A program made the position numbers and the translations under genes. From Fibrobacterota bacterium (lineage in GTDB: Bacteria; Fibrobacterota; Fibrobacteria; UBA11236): 32,068 nucleotides of DNA. Shown here in pieces: positions 5,381 to 27,500 of the stretch. The notes beneath the pieces were generated by a model that did not search any database, was not told where the DNA came from, and saw only the letters and a program-made list of their open reading frames with translations. Numbering within the stretch: the stretch's first letter is position 1; the number at the start of each line of letters is the position of its first letter. The stretch spans positions 1-32,068 of the forward strand of contig JAQBPN010000076.1 of assembly GCA_028287505.1 (NCBI GenBank), read 5' to 3'.

Positions 5381-8044
5381 TTACTTGTTCAAGGACCAGT
5401 TCGGGTCGCGCACCACTCCGGTCTTGGTGTACTCCACGTCTTCCTTGTTGTTGTCGAAGCGGAACACGGCCTTCCAGATGAATACGCCTTGGCCGGCTTT
5501 CTGTCCGTGTTCATCCTTCAGATCCCATACCAGGTAGCTCACCAGGCCGTGGTTGGCGATGCGCCTGCCGTTGTTCAGCTCTCCGTTGAATCCGAAACTC
5601 TGGCGCAGGTGGCGCACGAAGTTCGCATTGTTGTCGAAGATGCTGATGTCCACGATGTATTTGCCGGTGGAAACCACCTGCACCGTGCTGATGCCGGGAG
5701 GCAACGGGATCGGGATTTGCGATTCGTTCCCTACCGGCAGGGTTTTGATATCGGGTATGATGGGCTTGAACGTAGCGCCGGGCACGAATCCGTAGGGCGG
5801 GATCCACACCGTGGTGTAAGAGCCGCCGGCGGGGTCCTTGGTGGAATAGTCGTTATTGTCGCCCTTGCGGGGGTCATTGTTGACCACGAGAAAACCGGGC
5901 TGGCTGGCGGAGATGCCGACCACGGGCGGATAGCCGCGGAACAATTCGATTTGCTTGGGGGGAGGCGGGCCCGTCAGGGGAATCCCGTAAATGGGAGGCA
6001 CGTTGTGGTTCAAATCCGTATAGACCCCGTTGACATTGAGGTAGACGCAGTCGGTCGATTGGGGAGTGTAGGTTCCCGTGGTGCCCGTCGGGACCAGGAG
6101 CGTGAAGGTGGTGGAGGTGGCGTTCTGTCCGGGCTGCCCTTTGGGCACCACTTGCAGGGCGTGATCGTAATCCGTGCATTTGCCGTTCACGGGTTTGGAC
6201 CAGAGGAGCACGGCGTTCCAGGAGTTCTCGGTGCGAATCGGTTCCGAGGTGGTGAATACGAGCGTGTCCACGTTCAAGTCCGATCCCGGGGCCACCTTGG
6301 AGTTGTCGAAGGGCCGGATGTTGGCGGAGACGAGGATGGGGCCGATGGAATCCTTGATGAGAGGATGTTGGGAGAGGAAAACGCCGCCGGGGGGAAGGAT
6401 GCCAATCGGCGGGGCGGCAACGGGATCGGGTATGGAGGTCAAGCCCACGGGGTAGGGGTTGGCGGTGAGGTCGGCGATCACCACCGTGTTGCCGCTGGCG
6501 ATCAGGAATGAAAGTACCGGCTTGCCCTTGTTGAGGAATGCCGCTCCCACCTGGTTCCAGTAGATGGAGTCGATGGAGGATGGCAAAGCGGCCAAGGGCC
6601 GGGTGAATACGAAGAACACCTTGTCGCCCGCGCCGTCGCCGTCGGTGTCCTTGATGTAGGCGACCTTGACCGGGTTGATGGGCGGCGGCAGGTCAATGCA
6701 GGAAACGCTGAATTGCGTGCCGGGAAGGTTGACGTTGGTGCTGGCGTCCGGACCGGTAGTGTTCAATGTGAACGAGATGGCGTTGGCCTTGACCACCCCG
6801 CTGTTCACGTCCACCAGTTCGGTGCTGAGATCGATGGCGTTGTCGCCCGATTTCTTGAGGCCCACGGGCTTGTCCAGGTTCATCAGCCAGTGGCCGTCCG
6901 CCTGGCGCGAGAAATCGCTGGGCCCGGCGCGGCCAATCTGGGTGGGAGCCACGCTGTTGTTGGTCACCACCGCGCCGCTCGGGTTGTATTGGCGCAGGAT
7001 GACGTTGAGGATGCGCTCCACCACGGCCTTGAGGCTGTCCGGGCGGGAAGGCGGGATCAGGAAGAAGATACCGCCGGTCCGCTTGGAAAGGTCGCTCAGC
7101 TTGACCGTATCGGCCGAAGGCTTGCCCATGAAGATGCCGTACACCGGCGGCATGACACCGGGCATTTGCGGGTAAGTGGGAGCGATGACATCCAGATAGG
7201 CATCCGGATTGTTCGTGGGGTAGGTGGGACGCCCATCGGAAAGGAAGATTACGGCGTTGGTGGGATTGGGGGAAATGGCGGGCGTGAGCAGCCATTTCTT
7301 GGCGGTATCCAGGGAGGCTTTGTAGTTGGTGCCGTCGTTCAGGCTGGGCACCATGCCGGCCTTGACGCGGTTGATGTTGACCGGAGTGTTCAATTTCAGC
7401 GGGGCGATGGTGGGGTTGCGGACCGTGCCGGCGAAGCCCAGGAATCCGGCCGTGGAATTGGGCGCGCGCGCGGCCTGGAAGTCGATGGCCTGCTTGAACG
7501 CTATGCCGCGTTGGTTGAAAGGGTCGCCGGAAAAGGAGCTGCATGTAGTGGGGAGCTTGGCGGGATTGACGCGCGTGACCTGGCGGGTGCCGGCATCGTT
7601 GGGAATGGTGATGCTGCCGAATCCGTTCACGTCCGCATTCGTGAAACCGCAGTCCGCGGTCGATTCCAGGTACACGGTGTCCTTGAGGTCCTGGGAAATC
7701 CACACGTAGTTTATGCCCATGCTGCCGGATTGATCCATTACATACACGATGTCGGCGTTGCCGCCCGATTGCTCCGAGCTTTCGCAGAGGGAAAAGCCGG
7801 TGTTGTCGATGCGGGTCACGTTGGCGGGAATGACGATGTTCTTCTTGTCCAGACCGGCAAGGTCCAGGCATCGCTTGACCGTAACACCCGTGGTAAGCAC
7901 GGTATCGGCCCCGCGCAGGCTGCATTCCGCGCTGGGTTGGGCATGGACGCCGCCGGCGGCCAGAAAAACGGCCAGCAGGCCCGCCCAACGGCCCAGTATG
8001 GTCGGGCCCCGGAAAACGATGTGATCAAGATGATGAGTGGCCAT
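5381..8044 (-). CDS. Large secreted VWA-domain surface protein
   Basis: An 887-residue exported protein. A long signal peptide (residues 1-35, ending VHA-Q) precedes a short Cys-containing N-region. A von Willebrand factor A domain follows at about residues 97-340, with the metal-ion site residues D104, S106 and S108 (DQSGS), a Thr in a DGTNY loop and a later LSDGRP aspartate. All of these are intact, so it can bind a divalent metal and probably a ligand. About 450 residues of beta-rich sequence follow. The last 100 residues contain an ISIFDNNANFV...F pattern resembling FlgD-type Ig-like C-terminal domains. ATG 8044 has GAGGGA upstream. The gene is divergent from the Fic fusion gene. Likely an adhesin or surface-assembly protein; the ligand is not evident. 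Confidence 0.75.
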   Translation of the reverse strand: MATHHLDHIVFRGPTILGRWAGLLAVFLAAGGVHAQPSAECSLRGADTVLTTGVTVKRCLDLAGLDKKNIVIPANVTRIDNTGFSLCESSEQSGGNADIVYVMDQSGSMGINYVWISQDLKDTVYLESTADCGFTNADVNGFGSITIPNDAGTRQVTRVNPAKLPTTCSSFSGDPFNQRGIAFKQAIDFQAARAPNSTAGFLGFAGTVRNPTIAPLKLNTPVNINRVKAGMVPSLNDGTNYKASLDTAKKWLLTPAISPNPTNAVIFLSDGRPTYPTNNPDAYLDVIAPTYPQMPGVMPPVYGIFMGKPSADTVKLSDLSKRTGGIFFLIPPSRPDSLKAVVERILNVILRQYNPSGAVVTNNSVAPTQIGRAGPSDFSRQADGHWLMNLDKPVGLKKSGDNAIDLSTELVDVNSGVVKANAISFTLNTTGPDASTNVNLPGTQFSVSCIDLPPPINPVKVAYIKDTDGDGAGDKVFFVFTRPLAALPSSIDSIYWNQVGAAFLNKGKPVLSFLIASGNTVVIADLTANPYPVGLTSIPDPVAAPPIGILPPGGVFLSQHPLIKDSIGPILVSANIRPFDNSKVAPGSDLNVDTLVFTTSEPIRTENSWNAVLLWSKPVNGKCTDYDHALQVVPKGQPGQNATSTTFTLLVPTGTTGTYTPQSTDCVYLNVNGVYTDLNHNVPPIYGIPLTGPPPPKQIELFRGYPPVVGISASQPGFLVVNNDPRKGDNNDYSTKDPAGGSYTTVWIPPYGFVPGATFKPIIPDIKTLPVGNESQIPIPLPPGISTVQVVSTGKYIVDISIFDNNANFVRHLRQSFGFNGELNNGRRIANHGLVSYLVWDLKDEHGQKAGQGVFIWKAVFRFDNNKEDVEYTKTGVVRDPNWSLNK

Positions 8045-16711: not shown

Positions 16712-19120
16712 TCAGAACGGGGAGTGGATGGAGACGCGTCCGGTCCAATAGACCGACCAGCCGGCGCCTCCGCCTCCCCAACCCACGCGCAGGCTGTTGG
16801 CGGCGATGGCGTCGCTCAGGCGCGCCTGGTACCGCAGGCCCGCGCCGATGCGCTGATAGTAACGGTGGGCATTGGGCATTTCTTCGCGAAAGACGCCGGG
16901 GCCGGCCCAGAATCCCGCTCCCAGACGGCTCCAGGCTTCCAAGCGGGTATACAGGACCATGTTGTCGCGGGCGGTGGCTTCCTTGATGATGCCGTCGATC
17001 ACGGTTGTGAAATTCTGCGCGAATTCGAGGATGGCGTCTCCGTATATGACGTGGAGGTTGGACGTGTCCGCCACCACAATCGCCTGGTTCACGTGGCCCT
17101 GCATTTCGAACTCGATCTTGCCCAGGGCTTCCCCGGGAAAGGTCCATTCCCCCAGGATCCGGCCCATCAAACCGCCGGTGGCCACCTTGGAATCGGGCAT
17201 GCGCATGGTCACCCCCGCGTCAATCCAGAGCCTCCGTCCGCGGTTCTCGTTCTCCCGGCCCAACAGGTTTCCGCCGAACACCAGGTAGGGCCAGAAACGC
17301 GCGCCGCTCGCGCCTTTCACGCCGATGCGGTCCAGGGTGGGGGTGAACAGGCCCAGGCGTCCCGTGCCGAAGTCCGCGGTGATGGCCCAGGTGCTGACGC
17401 CGCCTTGGATGCGGTTTTCCAGGAACCATGCGGTGGGCCGGTCGGCGCGCTCCACCTTGTAGGCCACCCATTGGCCGGAAGAATGGCCGGCGGGATCCGA
17501 TGCCATCATGCGGGCCGCATAGGTGCCCGGCTGTTGCGGCGCCAGCAACAGGCGTTCCCCGTCCCAGGCCAATTGCGGGTCCTGGGATTCCGCGCGCACG
17601 GTAACGGGATCGCCCTCGCCGTCCACGGCCACGGGGCGGTAACTCGCGGGTTGCCCCGTACGCACGCGCCACACTCCCACTTCGCTGGCGAAACGCGGCG
17701 CCAGATCGGGCCGCACCGGCAGCTCCACCGTCTGCTCCAGCTTCTTGCCCTGCACGTCGAAGGTAAAGACCAGCGTGTGGCTTCCCGACGCCATGGGCTT
17801 TATCGTCAGGGATCCTTCCCGGAATCCGGTGGAATCGGGTCCGGTGACTTCGGTCAGGGTGATCCCTTGCTGGGCCCAGGCCATTGCGGAGGCGCCGGCT
17901 TCCCACGTATAGGTCTTGCCTTGGTTCAGGGTGTCCCAGGGCAGCGTGGGCTTGATACCCTCGCTCCAGAGCATGTCCGAGGCCGGGATCACCTTGATGG
18001 CGAAGGTGCTGTCGGTAGTGCCGCCCGCCTGATCCTCCAGGCGCAGCACCAGGTCCAGCTTCTGTCCCGCCAGGCTGTCGACCGGGTACCATTGGAATTG
18101 CCGGCTCGCGGAATCGAATTCCATTCCGGGGGGCATCTTCACGGCGGAGACGCGCACCTGGGATCCTTCATGATCGGCGTCCACGGCTTCCGCGCGGAAG
18201 TTCCACATCTGTCCCGCCACCGCCACCGGCTTGGGAGGATGCGCCAGGGAGGGCGGCATGTTGCGCCGCACCATCAGATTGAAGGCGACGGTGTCGAAGG
18301 ATCCGGAGCCGTTACGGGCCTCGGCGGTCAAATGCCATTGTCCCTCCGCCTCGGGCGATCCCTGCAAGGTATGCGTGGCCGCGTCCCAGGCCAGGCCCTT
18401 GGGCAGGTCGCCGAACAGGGAATAGCGCAGCAGGCCGGCCGGCTCCGCGGGATCGGTCGCCCATGCCTGCCATCGGAAGGGAAGGCCGGTGAAGATTTTG
18501 CCTGGAGCCTGGGTGATGAATTGCGGCTTGCCCGTGGGCGGCACGCGCCGCACGGTGGTGTATTTCAACTGGTCCAGGAACTCGTCCGGCGCCAGCAGGA
18601 TCAGGCTGTTCCCGTCGAACACGATGGTCATCTGCTGCCGTGAGGGAATGCCTCCGAACGTCTCCTCCAGGATCTTCAGCAGCTCCGCGCCCAATTGGTA
18701 GACCTTTTTCTCGCGTTGTCCGGTCACGAGCTTGGAGCGCGTCTCCCAGGTGGACACCGTGGCCTTGGCTTGCACCCGCAGGATGGGCGCCACCTTCAGC
18801 CTGCCCAGCGCGCCTTCGTCGTTCAGGGTCTGCCACACGTCCGCGTCCACCAGCACGGCCTTGTCCTGGAAGCGCATGATGTCGCCTTGCATCAGGCCCA
18901 GGTTGGGATCGTGGATCAGAAACACGGGCTGGCCCTTGGCCTTGAAGCGGCCCATCAGCTTCACTCCGGTGGCGGTGTCCTGGAGGGTGGAGAGGCCATA
19001 GTGGTTTAAGGGTTCCGCGCCGTTCTTGGCTAATGCCGCCGATGCGCAAAACAGGAAGAAAAGGATTTTTGCAAATTGAAAATTGAAAATCCCAAAATGC
19101 AAATTGGGGGAAAGGCCCAT
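16712..19120 (-). CDS. Large envelope protein with Ig-like domains and a barrel-like C-terminus
   Basis: About 802 residues, not recognised as a named family. The signal peptide is MGLSPNLHFG..., core ILFFLFCASAALA, then KNG. Residues 32-193 are an alpha/beta N-region with a QREKKVYQLGAELL segment. Three successive Ig/cadherin-like units follow at about 194-286, 287-377 and 470-557, each with the P.F..P...AV.G...F.A.A.D.. and LP.G...D....F.W.P pattern of 'putative Ig' domains. Residues 560-802 alternate hydrophobic and polar residues, with Gly and aromatics and a terminal SIHSPF, which suggests an outer-membrane barrel. Last gene of a four-gene minus operon with an ExbB-like channel. Start: ATG 19120 gives a good signal peptide, while the frame is open to an ATG at 19183 inside an AT-rich repeat; neither has a clear ribosome site. 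Confidence 0.62.
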   Translation of the reverse strand: MGLSPNLHFGIFNFQFAKILFFLFCASAALAKNGAEPLNHYGLSTLQDTATGVKLMGRFKAKGQPVFLIHDPNLGLMQGDIMRFQDKAVLVDADVWQTLNDEGALGRLKVAPILRVQAKATVSTWETRSKLVTGQREKKVYQLGAELLKILEETFGGIPSRQQMTIVFDGNSLILLAPDEFLDQLKYTTVRRVPPTGKPQFITQAPGKIFTGLPFRWQAWATDPAEPAGLLRYSLFGDLPKGLAWDAATHTLQGSPEAEGQWHLTAEARNGSGSFDTVAFNLMVRRNMPPSLAHPPKPVAVAGQMWNFRAEAVDADHEGSQVRVSAVKMPPGMEFDSASRQFQWYPVDSLAGQKLDLVLRLEDQAGGTTDSTFAIKVIPASDMLWSEGIKPTLPWDTLNQGKTYTWEAGASAMAWAQQGITLTEVTGPDSTGFREGSLTIKPMASGSHTLVFTFDVQGKKLEQTVELPVRPDLAPRFASEVGVWRVRTGQPASYRPVAVDGEGDPVTVRAESQDPQLAWDGERLLLAPQQPGTYAARMMASDPAGHSSGQWVAYKVERADRPTAWFLENRIQGGVSTWAITADFGTGRLGLFTPTLDRIGVKGASGARFWPYLVFGGNLLGRENENRGRRLWIDAGVTMRMPDSKVATGGLMGRILGEWTFPGEALGKIEFEMQGHVNQAIVVADTSNLHVIYGDAILEFAQNFTTVIDGIIKEATARDNMVLYTRLEAWSRLGAGFWAGPGVFREEMPNAHRYYQRIGAGLRYQARLSDAIAANSLRVGWGGGGAGWSVYWTGRVSIHSPF

Positions 19121-19209
19121 TTGCTTTTTGGGTGCACCGGAGACGCACCTCTCCATCTTCATCTTATGATTTTCAATTTTCATTTTTCAATTTGCAAATT
19201 TCAAAATGG
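19066..19209. repeat. AT-rich imperfect inverted repeat across the start of the envelope-protein gene
   Basis: The left arm at 19066-19090 (TTTTTGCAAATTGAAAATTGAAAAT) matches the complement of 19170-19202, which reads ATTTTCAATTTTCA, a 7-base insertion, then ATTTGCAAA. TGCAAATTG recurs at 19070 and 19098 and its complement near 19189. The stretch is far more AT-rich than its surroundings. It covers the end of the gap after the ExbD-like gene and the codons for the signal-peptide n-region of the next gene. Confidence 0.7.
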
Positions 19210-19230: not shown

Positions 19231-19785
19231 TCAGTACCCTCTCCGCCCCTTCGTCCACTCGCGGAACTGCTGTTCCATGGCCTTGCTTTCGGGTCGGGTC
19301 CCATAGTCCACGCTGTCGGATGCCGGGAACCACTCGGATTCTTCCTTGCTCCAAATCAGCTTGCCGCGGCGGAAGGTGACGGAGTGGCCGCGACCCTGCA
19401 CGTTCATGGCGATGAAGCTGCCGTCGCCGAGGTCGTGGCGGAGCACGGTGAGGTTGCTGTCCGGCGCCGCGGCTTCCAGGAACACGGCCTTGTCCGATCC
19501 GGATTCACTGACCAGGGCGGCCTTGCCCTCCAATCCGAAAGCGGTTCGGTAAGGCTGCACGCGTACGGAATCCCCGGGATGGCCCATCACGAATTGGGCT
19601 TGCAGGGACCAGTATTTGTCGGCGCGGGCCGCGATGGTCTTGGCCTTGTCCAGGTTCACCAGGGGGACCATGAAGACCAGGCGCAGGAGCAACAGCACGG
19701 TCATGACGGTGAGCACATCCTCGAAGGAAATGGCTTCGCCCATCTCCACCCGCGCGGCGCCGCCGCGGCCGCGGCGGAAGCTCAT
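19231..19785 (-). CDS. Short ExbD/MotB-like single-pass membrane protein
   Basis: A 184-residue protein. After a basic N-terminus (MSFRRGRGGAAR), residues 17-42 form one membrane helix that opens with EDVLTVMTVLLLLRLVFMVPL. The Asp at the start of the helix is where ExbD/TolR/MotB place their proton-carrying residue. The helix also contains an Arg, unusual for the family. The 140 periplasmic residues are not a clear ExbD or OmpA-like domain. The ATG overlaps the stop of the MotA/ExbB-like gene (ATGA at 19785-19782), the usual coupling for a channel and its partner. The call is from context and topology more than sequence; a structural comparison would settle it. Confidence 0.55.
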   Translation of the reverse strand: MSFRRGRGGAARVEMGEAISFEDVLTVMTVLLLLRLVFMVPLVNLDKAKTIAARADKYWSLQAQFVMGHPGDSVRVQPYRTAFGLEGKAALVSESGSDKAVFLEAAAPDSNLTVLRHDLGDGSFIAMNVQGRGHSVTFRRGKLIWSKEESEWFPASDSVDYGTRPESKAMEQQFREWTKGRRGY

Positions 19786-20915
19786 AATTCGTCCTCCAGC
19801 TTGCCGTTATCGATGTGGCTCGTCTCCAGCCGGCCGGTGTCGAGATTGTGGGGAGGCAGGGGCGCCACCGCCGAGGTCTTGGACTCGATGAAGCCGCGGT
19901 ATTGCTTCTCGTATTCCACCAGTTCCGCGATGCGGCGGCCCACGGCGGTCTGAACCATGGCCAATTGATCGAGTTGCTTGGTGGTCCGGGCGATGGCTTC
20001 CAGGGCGCGGCCCAGGTTGGAGTCCATTTCCTGCTGGGCGCGAGACATCTTGGCGTCCATCAGGGCCTGGGATTCCACGACTTGGCGCTGGCGGCCTTCC
20101 ACGCCGTAGCGCTTTTTCACCCAGGGCTGCAGGCGCGTCAGGTTCCAGTCGTTGATATGGCTGTTCACCATGTCGAAACCGCCCAGGGCGCGCTCCAGGA
20201 TCTGGATGGTCACCAGTTCGATGAGGATGGATAGGGCGGTGGCTCCCAAGGTCACGGCGATGGCGAACTCGTCGCCGTCGATGGCCAGGGAAATGTCTTT
20301 GATGAAGCGCAGTTCGCCGTCGCTGTCGGAGAGGCCCATCACCGCGCGCTGCATGGGGGGAAAGGTGAGGATGAGGCCGTACAGGGTGCCCAGAAACCCC
20401 AGCTTCAAGGTGGTGCGGTTCATGGAGACGTGGAGGGAAACCGAACTGTTGTCGGCGTGGGCGCGCCGGTCCCAGGCGTTGTTCAACAGGGACTCCGATC
20501 CGGTGGTCTCCCCGCGCATGCCCAATTCGATCCAGCGCAACAGCAGGTCGCGCATGTGGCCTGGAGGGGCGTTTTCCAGCAGCTTGTTCCGCAGAACCGG
20601 CAAATCGGGTTCGTCTCCCGCTTCCGCCAGCACCATGATGGATTTTCCCGTATTGCGCACGCCCGCCAGAACCTTCCGCATCTGGAACACGGCCATGACC
20701 TGGCCAATCGTGAAAAGCGCGAAGATCAGGGCCAGGAAGGGATTGGTATACCAGTGGAGTTCATATTTGAAAAAGGCGCAGGCGGCCAGGGCGATCACGG
20801 GGATGGGCACGAAGGCGGAGTTGCGCGCCAGCTTGCGGATCCGGATCAGGGCCCGCTTGGCCTGCTGCAACGGATCTTCGGACAATCGGAAGGTGGGAGG
20901 CGTGTTCATGCTCAT
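19782..20915 (-). CDS. MotA/TolQ/ExbB-type proton channel protein
   Basis: A 377-residue inner-membrane protein. Residues 34-80 hold a pair of membrane helices. Near residue 190 comes LGFLGTLYGLILTF, matching the family's LGLLGTvxGmI.aF, and near 230-255 comes AIAVTLGATALSILIELVTI, the pore-lining second block. Together these are the signature of the MotA/TolQ/ExbB family, which uses the proton gradient to move partner proteins. A long helical, probably coiled-coil C-terminal part (about 265-350) is cytoplasmic and larger than in ExbB. The start at 20915 overlaps the upstream stop as ATGA; an ATG two codons later (20909) has better spacing from GGAG. Confidence 0.82.
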   Translation of the reverse strand: MSMNTPPTFRLSEDPLQQAKRALIRIRKLARNSAFVPIPVIALAACAFFKYELHWYTNPFLALIFALFTIGQVMAVFQMRKVLAGVRNTGKSIMVLAEAGDEPDLPVLRNKLLENAPPGHMRDLLLRWIELGMRGETTGSESLLNNAWDRRAHADNSSVSLHVSMNRTTLKLGFLGTLYGLILTFPPMQRAVMGLSDSDGELRFIKDISLAIDGDEFAIAVTLGATALSILIELVTIQILERALGGFDMVNSHINDWNLTRLQPWVKKRYGVEGRQRQVVESQALMDAKMSRAQQEMDSNLGRALEAIARTTKQLDQLAMVQTAVGRRIAELVEYEKQYRGFIESKTSAVAPLPPHNLDTGRLETSHIDNGKLEDEL

Positions 20916-22117
20916 GCTCCGGGTCTGTTCATGATGGGGTTGTCCACTCTGACGCGCACCGAAACACCCAGGTTGAAACTCCTGAGATTGCGGTAGGCCA
21001 TATCGAAGTGGAGAAAGGCGATTCTGAATCTGGAAGGATAGGCTTCGGGAAGCCCCAGTTTCAGGGCGAGGTCGGGAATGTCCAGCCATAGGCGCGTGGC
21101 CAGGATGTCCGAGGCGATGATCAGGCCTCCGCCCCAGGTGCCGAACAAGGCCGGAAGATCGTCCATGCCCGCCGTCTGCACCGGCACGCTATAGGCATCC
21201 TGATCCCAATGGATTCCGTAACGCAGGATTCCCAGGCGGGCATCCAGGGTATGCGACAGGTTGCCGTCGCGCTGCAGGGCCGGTCCCGTCCACTGATTCA
21301 CCAGCCGGCCCGCCTTGTGGCCGCGGATGGCGGATACGGAAACGGGGTCGAGCCAGTAATATTGCGGCAGCGGCTGATTCGCCAGGGAGACGGTGTACTT
21401 CAGCCCGGGAACACCCGCGGATAGGGACCACCACCAATAGGCGTCGCCCCAGAAATCGGGCGTCTTGCCGCTGGGCAGCCGGCCGCCCGTGGTATCGGCC
21501 ACGGTAACGCCCAGGCGGGACAGTCCCCCTCCGAACTGGCTCCTGTGCAACTCCGCGCCCAGAAGATACCGGTTGAACGGTTTCTGACTCCAGGCGAAGT
21601 CGATGTCCCTTTGATACTGGGGTTTTGAGGAGCGGATGGCGCTCATCGAGGTACCGAGGCCCACCGCGAATCCCGCGGGCCAGTCGGCCCATTGCAACAG
21701 GGTTTCCCGGTTCCATTTGAAGGCATGCCACAGCAGAGGCACGTCCTGTTTTTCCGGCCCCTCCATGGCCGTGGCCCAATCCGATTCCGCGTTGGACGCG
21801 GAGGCCAAGGCGTTCCAGGCCAAACGGTCCATGCTGCCCACCTCCGTGCCGTTCCGCAAAAGGAAAACGGTGGCGGAACGCTGCCTCCCCGTGGAAAGCA
21901 CCGGCCCGGATGGGATCAGGATCTGGTATTCGCCGGGGGGCGCGGCGGAATCCGGAAACACCGTTCCCCAAGTCCGCGCGATGAGGGTGGAGTCGGTCAA
22001 TTCCAGGATCAGGGTGGGGCCGCTGGATTGCGCGCGCGCGCAGGGCGGGGACGTCAGGATTATCCCCGCGCATGCCAGGACGGCTTGGAAGAGACAACGC
22101 TTCACGGATTCGGGCAT
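20912..22117 (-). CDS. Predicted outer-membrane protein, first gene of the channel operon
   Basis: A 401-residue exported protein of no family I recognise. Residues 1-29 are a signal peptide (MPESVKRCLFQAVLACAGIILTSPPCARA-Q). A short region with ILELTDSTLIARTWGTVFP follows. From about residue 130 it has repeated amphipathic strands rich in Trp, Tyr and Gly, ending in FNLGVSVRVRVDNPIM, as in outer-membrane beta-barrels. ATG 22117 is chosen over an upstream in-frame ATG at 22216 because the signal peptide starts there and GGAAAGG lies 10 bases before. The stop overlaps the start of the ExbB-like gene, so its product is probably made with the channel and may be its outer-membrane target. Confidence 0.62.
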   Translation of the reverse strand: MPESVKRCLFQAVLACAGIILTSPPCARAQSSGPTLILELTDSTLIARTWGTVFPDSAAPPGEYQILIPSGPVLSTGRQRSATVFLLRNGTEVGSMDRLAWNALASASNAESDWATAMEGPEKQDVPLLWHAFKWNRETLLQWADWPAGFAVGLGTSMSAIRSSKPQYQRDIDFAWSQKPFNRYLLGAELHRSQFGGGLSRLGVTVADTTGGRLPSGKTPDFWGDAYWWWSLSAGVPGLKYTVSLANQPLPQYYWLDPVSVSAIRGHKAGRLVNQWTGPALQRDGNLSHTLDARLGILRYGIHWDQDAYSVPVQTAGMDDLPALFGTWGGGLIIASDILATRLWLDIPDLALKLGLPEAYPSRFRIAFLHFDMAYRNLRSFNLGVSVRVRVDNPIMNRPGA

Positions 22118-23428: not shown

Positions 23429-24130
23429 ATGGAGATTTTCCAGGAATCCGTAGAACAGAAATTCGTCTTTCCCCTCGGGCAGGCGAATGTGCTGCGCGAT
23501 TGGATGGAATACCGTCTTGCGCGGGATCCGCTATATTACCTTGGAACCATCCACAGCCTCTATTACGATACGACCGCGCTGCATCTCCTGGAGGAGAAGC
23601 GCAACAGCGACTATCAGAAGACCAAGGTTCGGCTCCGTTGGTACGACACGGAGAAGGATCGGGGAAACGATTCCGTGACCTGCTATCTCGAGGTGAAGCG
23701 GAAATCCGGAACGGTACGGCGCAAGGAGCGGCTGGCCGTCACCCTGCCCGCGGAAACCCTGGATGGCGGCATCTTCGGGAACCCGTTGGTGTGGGATCTC
23801 GCCACGCGCGCCTACGAACTCGGCTATTGCCCTCCCGGGACCCTCGTTCCCGTCGCGGAGATCAGCTACAAGCGGCTCCGTTACGTGGACCCGGAAACCG
23901 GCTCGCGCTTCTCGCTGGACACGGACATCAGGTGCCTCAGGGCCAACCACGATCTTTTCAACTTGAATCCTCCGGTCCATCTGGACTGCGGGGTTCTGGA
24001 ACAGAAAGGCGCGTCGCGGTTCCTGCTGGCATCGCATGCGCCCATCGCGGCTTTCCTCAATAAAGGTTCGTTTTCAAAGTATACGGAGTGCGTGGAAGCG
24101 CTCCTGCAGCCCATGCTGAAAAGGAGATAG
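23429..24130 (+). CDS. VTC-domain (polyphosphate-polymerase-like) tunnel protein
   Basis: A 233-residue protein with the triphosphate-tunnel pattern of VTC domains, in which eukaryotic Vtc4 makes polyphosphate from ATP. It has an N-terminal EQKF (ExKF), YYDT, KVRLRWYD (R-x-R), YLEVKRKSG...RRKER (E-x-K and basic strand) and a late YKRLRYVD. These charged positions line the tunnel and bind metal and phosphate, and all are present. It has no membrane segment of its own and would act with the DUF4956 membrane protein, whose ATG directly follows its stop. VTC, DUF4956 and CotH genes recur together in many bacteria, which supports the call. Whether the product is polyphosphate is not known. The ribosome site before ATG 23429 is weak. 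Confidence 0.83.
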   Translation: MEIFQESVEQKFVFPLGQANVLRDWMEYRLARDPLYYLGTIHSLYYDTTALHLLEEKRNSDYQKTKVRLRWYDTEKDRGNDSVTCYLEVKRKSGTVRRKERLAVTLPAETLDGGIFGNPLVWDLATRAYELGYCPPGTLVPVAEISYKRLRYVDPETGSRFSLDTDIRCLRANHDLFNLNPPVHLDCGVLEQKGASRFLLASHAPIAAFLNKGSFSKYTECVEALLQPMLKRR

Positions 24131-24832
24131 ATGAACGAGATTCTTGGAAAAATCGCCCGGCTCGTACAGGACCCCAGCCTGGAAGTGGACATGACGGGTT
24201 TCCTTTTCGCCCTTGTCGTATCCGCTTTCGTGGGCGTGGCCGTTTCCGCTTTGTACCAGGTTTTTTACGAGAACCGGGCCACGGGGTCCCAGATCCACAG
24301 AAGCTTCCTGTTGATCTCCCCATCCATCACCGCCCTGTTCATCGCCATCCAGTTCTCGCTCCCGTTGTCCCTGGGACTTTTGGGCGCCCTCTCCATCATC
24401 CGTTTCCGCACGCCCATCAAGGAGCCGGAGGAAGTGGGGTTCATCATGCTGCTCATCGCATGCTCCGTGGTTTGCGCCACCTTCCAGTTCATGCTGCTGC
24501 TGGTGTTGCTCCTGTTGGCCCTGGCCGTCCTGACGCTTCAACGGTACGTACCGGGCTGGTTCCACTCCAAGCGGACCGATGGAATCCTGCTGCTCACCCT
24601 GAACGGCGATGTGGCCCCTGAAAGCAAGGAGAAGCTGGTGGGGCATCTCAAGGAAAAACTGACCCGCGGCCGGCTCCAGGGCATCACCTACGCCGAAAAC
24701 CTCACCACCATCCACTTTTCGTTCAACGGAATGGATGGAGCCAAACTGGATGGGTTGCACAAGGCGCTTCACGATATCGCGCCCATCCAGCGGTTGAACA
24801 TCTACTTCAACAGCCAGGGCGCGCTGACTTGA
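24131..24832 (+). CDS. DUF4956 membrane protein
   Basis: A 233-residue inner-membrane protein with about four helices in the first 150 residues and a soluble C-terminal domain. The diagnostic block is GALSIIRFRTPIKEPEEVGFIMLLIACSV (about residues 83-111), conserved in DUF4956. The soluble end (about 155-233) alternates strands and helices like an ACT or ferredoxin fold. It starts at the base after the VTC-gene stop, with AAAAGGAGATAG upstream, and is followed 10 bases later by the CotH gene. The biochemical role of DUF4956 is not established. The repeated gene order suggests it anchors the VTC protein or moves its product across the membrane. Confidence 0.85.
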   Translation: MNEILGKIARLVQDPSLEVDMTGFLFALVVSAFVGVAVSALYQVFYENRATGSQIHRSFLLISPSITALFIAIQFSLPLSLGLLGALSIIRFRTPIKEPEEVGFIMLLIACSVVCATFQFMLLLVLLLLALAVLTLQRYVPGWFHSKRTDGILLLTLNGDVAPESKEKLVGHLKEKLTRGRLQGITYAENLTTIHFSFNGMDGAKLDGLHKALHDIAPIQRLNIYFNSQGALT

Positions 24833-24842
24833 GGCCTACGGT

Positions 24843-27500
24843 TTGAAGGCCATCTGGAAGCTCGCGCTCTCTTTGGGCGGCGTGGGCGTGGCCGCGGGCC
24901 TGTTCGGGCGGATGGAATCCGCGCGGGGCGTCCGCCGCGAGCTCTGGGGGCTTAACCAGCAGAACTTCCATGAATTCGAGCGCAAGCTCAAGGCGCGCAA
25001 GCTGCCCATGCTGGCTGAAAGCATCGCCGGCTATTCCACGGATTCGACGCCCCCGGAAGTGGGTGTCGGCCCTGAAGGTGGATTTTTTCCCGCCTCGGTT
25101 ACGGTGGCCCTTTCCGCTCCCGGGCAGGGTGATATCCGCTATACCCTGGACGGCAGCATTCCCGATCGGTACAGCGCCGTCTATGCCGGGCCCATCGCCA
25201 TCGAAAGCACTACGGTGGTGCGTGCGCGCATCCTCAAGCGCGGCCTGCTGCCCGGTCCGACCGTTTCCCGGACCTACTTCCTGGAAGCGAGACCCCGCAC
25301 GCCGGTCGTGTCCCTGATCATGGACCCCATCACTCTCTGGAACAAGTATTCGGGAATCTACGAGAACCCCAAGGGGGCGGGGGAGGAATGGGAACGGCAG
25401 GTCGACTTCGAGGTCCTCAGGACCCCCGGAGCGGCCACCTGGAGATCCGCGGGCCGTATCCGGATACATGGAGGTTACTCCCGGAACCATCCCAAGAAAT
25501 CCTTCCGCATCCGGTATCCCGCTTTGGAAATGGGCGCGGCGGACAGCGGCGTATTGGTCCCCCGGGGCGTCGGGGCCGAGCGGACGGTAGTCTTGAGGAT
25601 GGGCGGCAGCAATAGCCGGTTCCGCCTTCGGGACGAGCTTTTCGCGGCCTTGTACCGGCGGTCGGGAGGCATATCCTCCGGATTCGAACCCGTCACGGTT
25701 TATCTCAACGGCGCCTACTGGGGCCTCTACGATGCGCGCGAATACGTGGACGAAGAGTTCCTGCAAGCCCGCTTCGGACCGGGCCGATACGAACTCCTGG
25801 CCTTCGACTCCAAGCACCGGAACCAGTGGGCCACCCCTGTTCTGGGGAAGAAAAAAGCATGGAAGGAAACGGTCCGCTTTTTCGAGAAGAGCGACTTCTC
25901 CCAGGCGGAGGCTTATGCGAAGGCCGGCGAAATCCTCGACCTCGCGAACACGATCGATTATTGGGCCCATAACATCTATGCCGCCAATATCGATTGGCCC
26001 TACAACAACATGACCGTTTTCCGGAAGGTGGACGGGGACGGCCGATGGCGCTGGATTTCCTGGGACGCGGACGCCACTTTCAACTATGGCGGCAACAAGC
26101 TGGGGCACGGCACCCTGGAATGGGCCATTCGCGACCGGATCCGCAACGATCTGAAGCACAATTACGAGAAGGGCCTTTACGAGGACGAAGGAACCTTCCT
26201 GGTGTCGACTCTCTTCATGCGCAAGCTGCTCGCCAATCCGGAATTCAAGAATGCCTTCGTGACCCGGTTCACGGACCTGCTCAACACGGAGATGCGGCCG
26301 GAACGGGTGGAGGGCCTTCTCGATAGCATCATCGCCCTTTCCAAACCGGACCTGGCGAAGGATTGGAAACGGTGGGGACTTTCGGACAGCGCCTACCAGG
26401 CCGACCAAAAGCTGATCCGCGATTTCATCCGCGGACGTCCGGCCGTGGTGCGGAGCCACCTTGAAAGGGTTTTCGGTTTGGGCGCGGGCATCGGCGTGGA
26501 GGTTGCGTACGACACGGCCGCGGGCTCGGTGAAAGTGAACGCGGCCGGCATCACGGGCTCACCCTGGCAGGGAACCTACTATCGGGGGATGCGCCTCCGG
26601 TTCTCGGCCGCGCCCAAGCGCGGTTTCGCCTTCAAGGGCTGGAAAGCGGGGCCGAAGGCATACCCGGATCCTGTCCTGGAAACCTCCGTGGACGCTCCGC
26701 TTGCTTTGCAAGCCCGGTTCGAACCCGTGCGCTCCTCCCCGACGGCGTCCGCCGCGCCCGGAACCGGTGCGATCGGCAGGCCGGATGCCGGCGCAATCGC
26801 CAAGCCGGATATCGGCGCACTCGATGTGGGATCCGATTGGATGCATGTGGGGGACAGTCAGACCGGGGGCCGCGCCCATGGCGCGGTCTTGAGCCCGGGC
26901 ACGGCGTTCAAAACCATATTCACGTCCAGTTTCGGCCGAAGTCCCACCCTTTGGGCCAAGGGGATATCCGGTCAGCCCCTTTCGGCCACCTTGGCCATGT
27001 TCAACGGCCGCGCGGAGAAGACCTCGGCCACCTGGGTCCACTTCCAGGAAAGCGGGAATCAGAACGAGGCCGGACAGAGGACTCCCGCGGAATTCGGGGA
27101 AACCTTTCTCGCCATGGGTCGGGCGGTAAAGGCGGGCTCGCCCAAGGCCGTCATCTCCACGGAGACGGCCTATTCCTTCCGGAGGGAGGCGCTGCCCTAC
27201 CGCGATTGGACCGGATACAATACGGTCTTGCGCGCCATGGTCGCCCGACTCCAATCCGAAGGGATCCGCATCGTCATCGCCGAGGTGGACCGTAACATCC
27301 AGGAGCTGGTCCGGCGAGTCGGGTTTTCGACCGCAATCCTGCCGGACGGCGGACATTATTCCGGAGTCGGAAACCTCCTGGTGGCGCTCTCTTACTTCGA
27401 TGCCCTTGGCTATGATGTGGCCAAGCTGAACCTGGGCGGAATCATCGAGGTGCCTGCCGACCAAAAGAGCATCTGCCTGGAAATCATCGCGGGGCACTAG
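24843..27500 (+). CDS. CotH-type protein kinase fused to an SGNH-hydrolase-like domain
   Basis: An 885-residue exported or membrane-anchored protein. TTG 24843 with GAGG 8 bases upstream starts it; residues 5-22 are hydrophobic. Domains: a chitobiase/FN3-like sandwich (about 58-148, IRYTLDGSIPD), then a CotH kinase (about 150-530) with HGGYSRNHPKKSFRIRY, YLNGAYWGLYDAREYVDEEFL, NIDWPYNNMTVFRK and the metal-binding SWDADATF. CotH kinases phosphorylate serines of surface proteins. A bacterial-repeat domain follows (about 548-632, FSAAPKRGFAFKGW). From 660 a fourth domain has GDSQ (D671, S672) and DGGHYSGVG (D835, H838), the first and last blocks of SGNH hydrolases. A CotH-SGNH fusion is unusual; acetyl- or acyl-esterase activity is possible. 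Confidence 0.83.
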   Translation: MKAIWKLALSLGGVGVAAGLFGRMESARGVRRELWGLNQQNFHEFERKLKARKLPMLAESIAGYSTDSTPPEVGVGPEGGFFPASVTVALSAPGQGDIRYTLDGSIPDRYSAVYAGPIAIESTTVVRARILKRGLLPGPTVSRTYFLEARPRTPVVSLIMDPITLWNKYSGIYENPKGAGEEWERQVDFEVLRTPGAATWRSAGRIRIHGGYSRNHPKKSFRIRYPALEMGAADSGVLVPRGVGAERTVVLRMGGSNSRFRLRDELFAALYRRSGGISSGFEPVTVYLNGAYWGLYDAREYVDEEFLQARFGPGRYELLAFDSKHRNQWATPVLGKKKAWKETVRFFEKSDFSQAEAYAKAGEILDLANTIDYWAHNIYAANIDWPYNNMTVFRKVDGDGRWRWISWDADATFNYGGNKLGHGTLEWAIRDRIRNDLKHNYEKGLYEDEGTFLVSTLFMRKLLANPEFKNAFVTRFTDLLNTEMRPERVEGLLDSIIALSKPDLAKDWKRWGLSDSAYQADQKLIRDFIRGRPAVVRSHLERVFGLGAGIGVEVAYDTAAGSVKVNAAGITGSPWQGTYYRGMRLRFSAAPKRGFAFKGWKAGPKAYPDPVLETSVDAPLALQARFEPVRSSPTASAAPGTGAIGRPDAGAIAKPDIGALDVGSDWMHVGDSQTGGRAHGAVLSPGTAFKTIFTSSFGRSPTLWAKGISGQPLSATLAMFNGRAEKTSATWVHFQESGNQNEAGQRTPAEFGETFLAMGRAVKAGSPKAVISTETAYSFRREALPYRDWTGYNTVLRAMVARLQSEGIRIVIAEVDRNIQELVRRVGFSTAILPDGGHYSGVGNLLVALSYFDALGYDVAKLNLGGIIEVPADQKSICLEIIAGH

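Follow-up and report, generated by a model that had tools for sequence, protein, structure and literature searches.

What does an ExbB-like channel energise when neither TonB nor Tol partners stand beside it? A Fibrobacterota locus raises this question, since a sequence-only reading had proposed there a new envelope motor made of such a channel, a short ExbD-like partner and dedicated outer-membrane proteins. The window (the whole stretch of DNA analysed, 32,068 nucleotides) comprises bases 1-32068 of contig 35 of a 6.07 Mb genome, and the set within it consists of four genes:

20912 to 22117, minus strand: gene 1, the probable outer-membrane protein ("OMP"), 401 aa; ATG at 22117, stop TGA at 20914-20912
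19782 to 20915, minus strand: gene 2, the channel; ATG at 20915 (GCATGAGC), stop at 19784-19782
19231 to 19785, minus strand: gene 3, the partner, 184 aa; ATG at 19785 (TTATGAGC), end at 19231
16712 to 19183, minus strand: gene 4, the Ig protein; start codon uncertain, at 19183 or at the ATG at 19120

The ATGA overlaps described earlier between OMP and channel (20915/20912) and between channel and partner (19785/19782) are exactly as claimed in frame, strand and coordinates; the channel gene has a second ATG at 20909. Gene 4 lies on the same strand, 47 bases beyond the partner gene, and is a member of the set. Its start codon is made uncertain by a 23-nt inverted repeat (19068-19090 and 19176-19198, 96% complementary) that lies over the boundary between the partner and Ig genes and over the beginning of the latter. 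The core of this repeat, TTTCAATTTTCAATTTGCAAA, has 13 sites in the genome at two or fewer mismatches, compared with 0 for the reversed control, and the repeat may be a dispersed one. All four genes are under purifying selection, with synonymous change far exceeding amino-acid change between congeners (dN/dS of 0.06-0.21 for the channel, 0.09-0.16 for the partner, 0.17-0.28 for the OMP and 0.11-0.22 for gene 4).

Pfam searches of the neighbouring genes placed Ig domains only on the downstream gene, and PfkB, VTC, DUF4956 and CotH on upstream divergent genes. The VTC domain, DUF4956 and CotH kinase genes, which form a divergent operon (23429-27500), are found beside the module in genome G004 too, but not generally. 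Elsewhere in the window (5381-8044, minus strand) lies a gene for a large secreted protein in which Pfam weakly matches a von Willebrand A domain; it is near the module in G002 and G003 as well, and we found no link between this protein and the four-gene module.

The sequence-only reading had taken the four genes for a dedicated set and had suggested a neighbourhood search, which bears this idea out. We searched with the channel as a protein in 61 genomes and as a profile in 167 Fibrobacterota genomes. The module is present in 17 of the 167, in nine genera and at 20 loci, and the order OMP-channel-partner-Ig protein is kept at every locus (17 genomes plus three extra copies, with one copy ending at a contig end). 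Profiles of the channel, the partner and the OMP recover identical sets of 17 genomes and no other genome among the 167, and full-length matches to gene 4 occur only in module-bearing genomes, plus one contig-edge fragment in G061; its remaining matches are isolated Ig domains in unrelated long proteins. The channel and partner genes overlap, or are separated by a few bases, in nearly all loci. No further neighbour at the 20 loci is common to most genera, pfkB adjoining the module only within the family of the window genome, and the neighbouring genes indicate no function. The distribution is patchy: G006 and G009 carry the module but their congeners G007 and G008, both near-complete, do not, while family f3, which supplies most of the searched genomes, has it in G055 only. 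Plasmids and viral contigs that we searched gave no match to the module.

Three genomes (G000, G004 and G005) hold a second, divergent copy of the whole module. Trees built from the four genes largely agree with one another: pairwise distance correlations lie at 0.88-0.94, and in every tree the second copies group as one clade. Part of this correlation would arise from shared descent alone; the identical presence pattern and the second copy of the whole set weigh more. Together these observations indicate that the four genes are inherited and copied as a unit and constitute a real co-inherited module.

The second copies (G000:C111, G004:C73 and G005:C239) run directly into a fifth gene that is absent from the main module:

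5221 to 6762 of L005: fifth gene of a second copy
5161 to 6687 of L044: fifth gene of a second copy
about 1 to 1060 of L045, minus strand: fifth gene of a second copy

Its product, which matches no Pfam family, is a putative lipoprotein that carries several repeats of the form ENTxxLCxDxxDNDxDGxxDCxDxxC; it could be a cargo or a surface partner. Separately, the partner gene of G087 is split into two overlapping frames (L074, 10865-11382), owing either to a frameshift or to an error in sequencing.

On sequence comparison we treat the channel as a remote relative of MotA, TolQ and ExbB and not as a filed member of their family. By hydropathy, two segments lie near its N-terminus and two in its core, with a long cytoplasmic loop between the pairs, as in MotA; a long tail follows. 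The Pfam family MotA_ExbB (PF01618) matches all 20 channel homologues below threshold (best E 1.3e-4; the window copy scores 12.3 bits, below the cut-off of 22.9), while every other Pfam family matches at most four of the 20. Alignment by hhalign against the ExbB, TolQ and MotA proteins of the same genome gave E 1.3e-5 and a probability of 80%, upholding the earlier description of the channel as ExbB-like. The relation is remote, because plain HMMER separates just two of seven ExbB-type proteins from shuffled decoys. Scans of the single sequence against Pfam, NCBIfam, PADLOC and PDB returned no family; the top PDB matches were coiled-coil matches to viral hemagglutinin. We discarded a weak third channel-like match in the genome (contig 113), since it overlaps, in a different frame, a gene unrelated to it. 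Four residues of the channel and partner, together with a neighbouring acid, are of interest here:

20385 to 20387, minus strand: channel Thr174 (numbering from the Asn at 20906), in an FLGTL motif that aligns with the ExbB/TolQ GT motif
20238 to 20240, minus strand: channel Thr223, aligning with the Thr that never varies in the ExbB/TolQ/MotA ATxxG motif
19717 to 19722, minus strand: partner Glu22-Asp23, where the membrane helix begins
19681 to 19683, minus strand: partner Arg35, inside the membrane helix

Thr174 and Thr223 are invariant in the 20 channel homologues and, in the hhalign alignment, fall on conserved ExbB/TolQ channel positions. The evidence for the ATxxG alignment of Thr223 includes an invariant Thr166. 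Further channel residues without variation among the 20 homologues are P34, H159, R164, K168, S226, E230 and W254. The long coiled C-terminus that had been described for the channel is a long tail indeed, variable in length between homologues (whole protein 333-421 aa), with weak coiled-coil profile matches as the sole indication of coiling.

A channel with a long cytoplasmic tail next to a short partner recalls ZorA-ZorB of the Zorya system, and the module might on this ground be a sensor gated by the proton-motive force, or a channel with a signalling tail, that produces no force. A few channel homologues do reach the ZorA models of NCBIfam, at E 0.06-0.07 only. Zorya itself was rejected, as none of the four proteins has a PADLOC match at E up to 1; the module has no ZorC/D/E-type genes, no effector gene is conserved or shared among its neighbours, and two proteins exported to the envelope are always present. 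We therefore give the sensor reading a slim chance.

The partner, in contrast to its description as ExbD-like, resembles ExbD in position and topology but not in sequence. It has one N-terminal membrane helix and lies beside the channel gene, and every one of the 19 aligned homologues has an acid at residue 22 (E, once D), making this residue a candidate proton carrier on sequence grounds; residue 23 varies among D, E, S and N. Neither Pfam (14 members), HMMER nor hhalign (probability 2%) detects any ExbD/TolR similarity, and scans of the single protein against Pfam, NCBIfam, PADLOC and PDB sequences gave no family. An OmpA-like peptidoglycan-binding domain is absent, and no partner that was scanned has a Pfam match. 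The AF2 model (mean pLDDT 81) predicts a head in which six antiparallel strands are accompanied by two short helices and a C-terminal helix. Foldseek returned no significant match to this head; VIA-align ranked polo-box domains best, at a Z of about 6, a similarity that may reflect no more than a frequent arrangement. The partner is thus ExbD- or MotB-like in position and topology and not assignable to either family. The Arg claimed inside its helix is present as R35, but it is not general, as 13 of the 19 homologues have Arg and six have Phe.

The module is separate from the TonB and Tol systems of its own genome, as had been claimed: ExbB-ExbD-TonB sets and a TolQ-TolR-TolA-like set are encoded elsewhere, no gene for TonB, TolA or Pal adjoins the four genes, and none is part of the set at any of the 20 loci. 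Compared with ExbB-ExbD-TonB and TolQ-TolR-TolA-Pal, the module shares remote channel similarity, the core threonines, an adjacent gene for a single-helix partner and an acid at the start of that helix. It differs in that its channel has four hydrophobic segments, as MotA does, and a long cytoplasmic tail, and in that ExbD similarity, TonB, TolA and Pal are lacking and two dedicated exported proteins are found instead. An inner-membrane motor combined with an outer-membrane anchor, in a duplicated set that evolves as a unit, would also suit a divergent Tol-like envelope system, in which the motor pulls outer-membrane anchors for envelope cohesion or constriction and the Ig protein replaces TolA and Pal. 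The genome's own TolQ-TolR-TolA-like set argues against this, and the absence of the module from 150 of the 167 genomes, including near-complete congeners of carriers, is unlike a housekeeping division system. We regard this explanation as quite improbable.

Flagellar stators resemble the module in their four-segment channel and in their overlapping channel and partner genes, but the module's partner lacks the OmpA-like peptidoglycan-binding domain of MotA-MotB and PomA-PomB. The window genome also has a MotA-like gene separate from the module, and the module is present in two genomes that have no flagellin match, G006 (98% complete) and G009 (87%).

A comparison with GldL-GldM bears on type IX secretion (T9SS). 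Both systems have a channel and a single-helix partner, and in both Ig-like domains are a probable trans-periplasmic bridge. The periplasm-spanning shaft of GldM, however, belongs to the inner-membrane partner, whereas in the module a separate protein, for which an outer-membrane barrel is predicted, carries the Ig chain; the GldM family matches none of the four proteins. The module could in principle be a lineage-specific motor of the type IX secretion or gliding apparatus that replaces GldLM: SprA is found in the window genome and in nearly all Fibrobacterota (SprA_N in 158 of 167 genomes), and the GldM_1st profile matches 0 of 167, although its control was silent too. The distribution of the module, however, does not follow that of SprA, and most T9SS-bearing genomes (158 with SprA against 17 with the module) do without it. 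Hence we attach hardly any weight to such a motor. As most relatives with SprA lack the module, and two genomes without detected flagellin have it, we reject its identification both as the general T9SS motor and as a flagellar stator.

The two exported proteins are the module's own. Gene 1 encodes a signal peptide, a small N-terminal domain with a conserved NGT motif and a strand-rich C-terminal part of about 280 residues; the window copy has no internal hydrophobic helix, and Pfam, NCBIfam and PDB gave no match. Strand alternation in the last 280 residues exceeds that of shuffled sequences in most homologues, weakly (z of 1.1-1.5 for the window copy), and because this signal is weak we call gene 1 a probable outer-membrane barrel. 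Gene 4 encodes a signal peptide, an N-domain (residues 62-212), four Ig-like domains (213-580; He_PIG match in Pfam at 2.6e-12) and a C-terminal domain (585-823). In the AF2 model this last domain consists of about 12 strands of 7-19 residues each, mostly at pLDDT 74-93, and ends in a terminal Phe. The large Ig-like/barrel protein expected after the channel and partner is thus present, with Ig domains and a predicted C-terminal barrel. The model as a whole has a pLDDT of 71 and a low pTM of 0.37, and its N-domain is poorly modelled; Foldseek and VIA-align returned only Ig and cadherin-like domains, with none for the barrel part or the N-domain. In most homologues the N-domain is the best-conserved part, and the number of Ig domains is four, or three in several.

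The main rival reading takes SiiA/SiiB and SiiE as its analogy: the motor would power the Ig protein's export, or its retention, as an adhesin, and gene 1 would act as a helper; the Ig chain would then lie outside the cell. Ig domains of the He_PIG/cadherin kind are used in adhesins, about 12 C-terminal strands also suit an autotransporter-like barrel, and a proton channel has been proposed to control retention of an Ig-repeat adhesin in SiiAB/SiiE (PMC6272769), where a channel pair is likewise linked to an Ig-domain protein at the outer membrane. The module, however, includes no type I secretion system and neither an ABC exporter nor a secretion ATPase. SiiE has 53 repeats and a T1SS signal, whereas the module's Ig protein has just three or four Ig domains and its own C-terminal barrel, and its best-conserved part is the N-domain rather than the tip-like Ig repeats. 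Such control of surface display appears unlikely to us.

The reading that we favour, at a probability of roughly 0.55, is of a single trans-envelope machine made by all four gene products: driven by protons, the motor would move, through its periplasmic head, an Ig arm anchored in the outer membrane. By analogy with the MotAB, ExbBD and TolQR families (reviewed in PMC9389320), the channel and partner should form a proton-driven motor. A ring of threonines together with an acid is the signature of known motors (PMC12204202), and the invariance of T174 and T223 in 20 channel homologues and the acidic partner residue 22 (19 of 19) match it. We infer the stoichiometry, proton flow, contacts, Ig-chain orientation and output of this machine as follows. 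The channel, probably a pentamer, and the partner, probably a dimer, would make up a MotA/ExbB-type motor in the inner membrane. Protons would travel along helices lined by threonines and be taken up by the acid at partner residue 22, and the loaded partner would turn or shift inside the channel. Its periplasmic head may then pass the movement to the operon's two outer-membrane proteins; as gene 1 and gene 4 are the sole constant companions of the motor, they are its likely load. First contact would most likely be made by the conserved N-domain of gene 4, and a conserved N-domain with a varying number of Ig domains is as expected if the N-domain contacts the motor. The Ig chain of gene 4 would hang inward from its C-terminal barrel and bridge the periplasm. 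Such a bridge, anchored in the outer membrane and reaching inward, would need neither TonB nor TolA. The result would be an energised outer-membrane pair that gates, pulls or holds a surface structure.

More tentatively, the module may represent a new class of proton-driven trans-envelope motor with an inverted force transducer, in which an outer-membrane barrel protein reaches inward, with its Ig arm and N-domain, to a motor head that is not ExbD, so that no TonB, TolA or GldM shaft is required.

Thus the sequence-only reading holds for the dedicated set, the channel, the separation from TonB and Tol and the predicted barrel of gene 4, but not for an ExbD sequence in the partner or a general Arg in its helix. 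A literature search of partial rather than exhaustive coverage brought up no title or abstract describing the four-gene set. Other uses of the TolQ scaffold without TonB or TolA have been reported, recently vWA-type force transducers with TolQ-like motors and AglRQS-Glt (PMC12204202); their transducers differ from those of the module, which has no vWA domain.

Known machines that deliver proton-motive energy to the outer membrane are few, and further ones are expected to be discovered (PMC12204202). None of the few known envelope machines fits the module, a previously undescribed gene set of some uncultured Fibrobacterota that looks like a proton-driven inner-membrane motor wired to two outer-membrane proteins. 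It is compact, self-contained and always co-inherited, and it stands apart from the TonB, Tol, flagellar and type IX systems that the same cells have. A partner that combines an ExbD helix with a different head would show that the motor's periplasmic module is exchangeable. The inward Ig arm, if true, would reveal a further means of spanning the periplasm, and with four genes the system is small enough for reconstitution.
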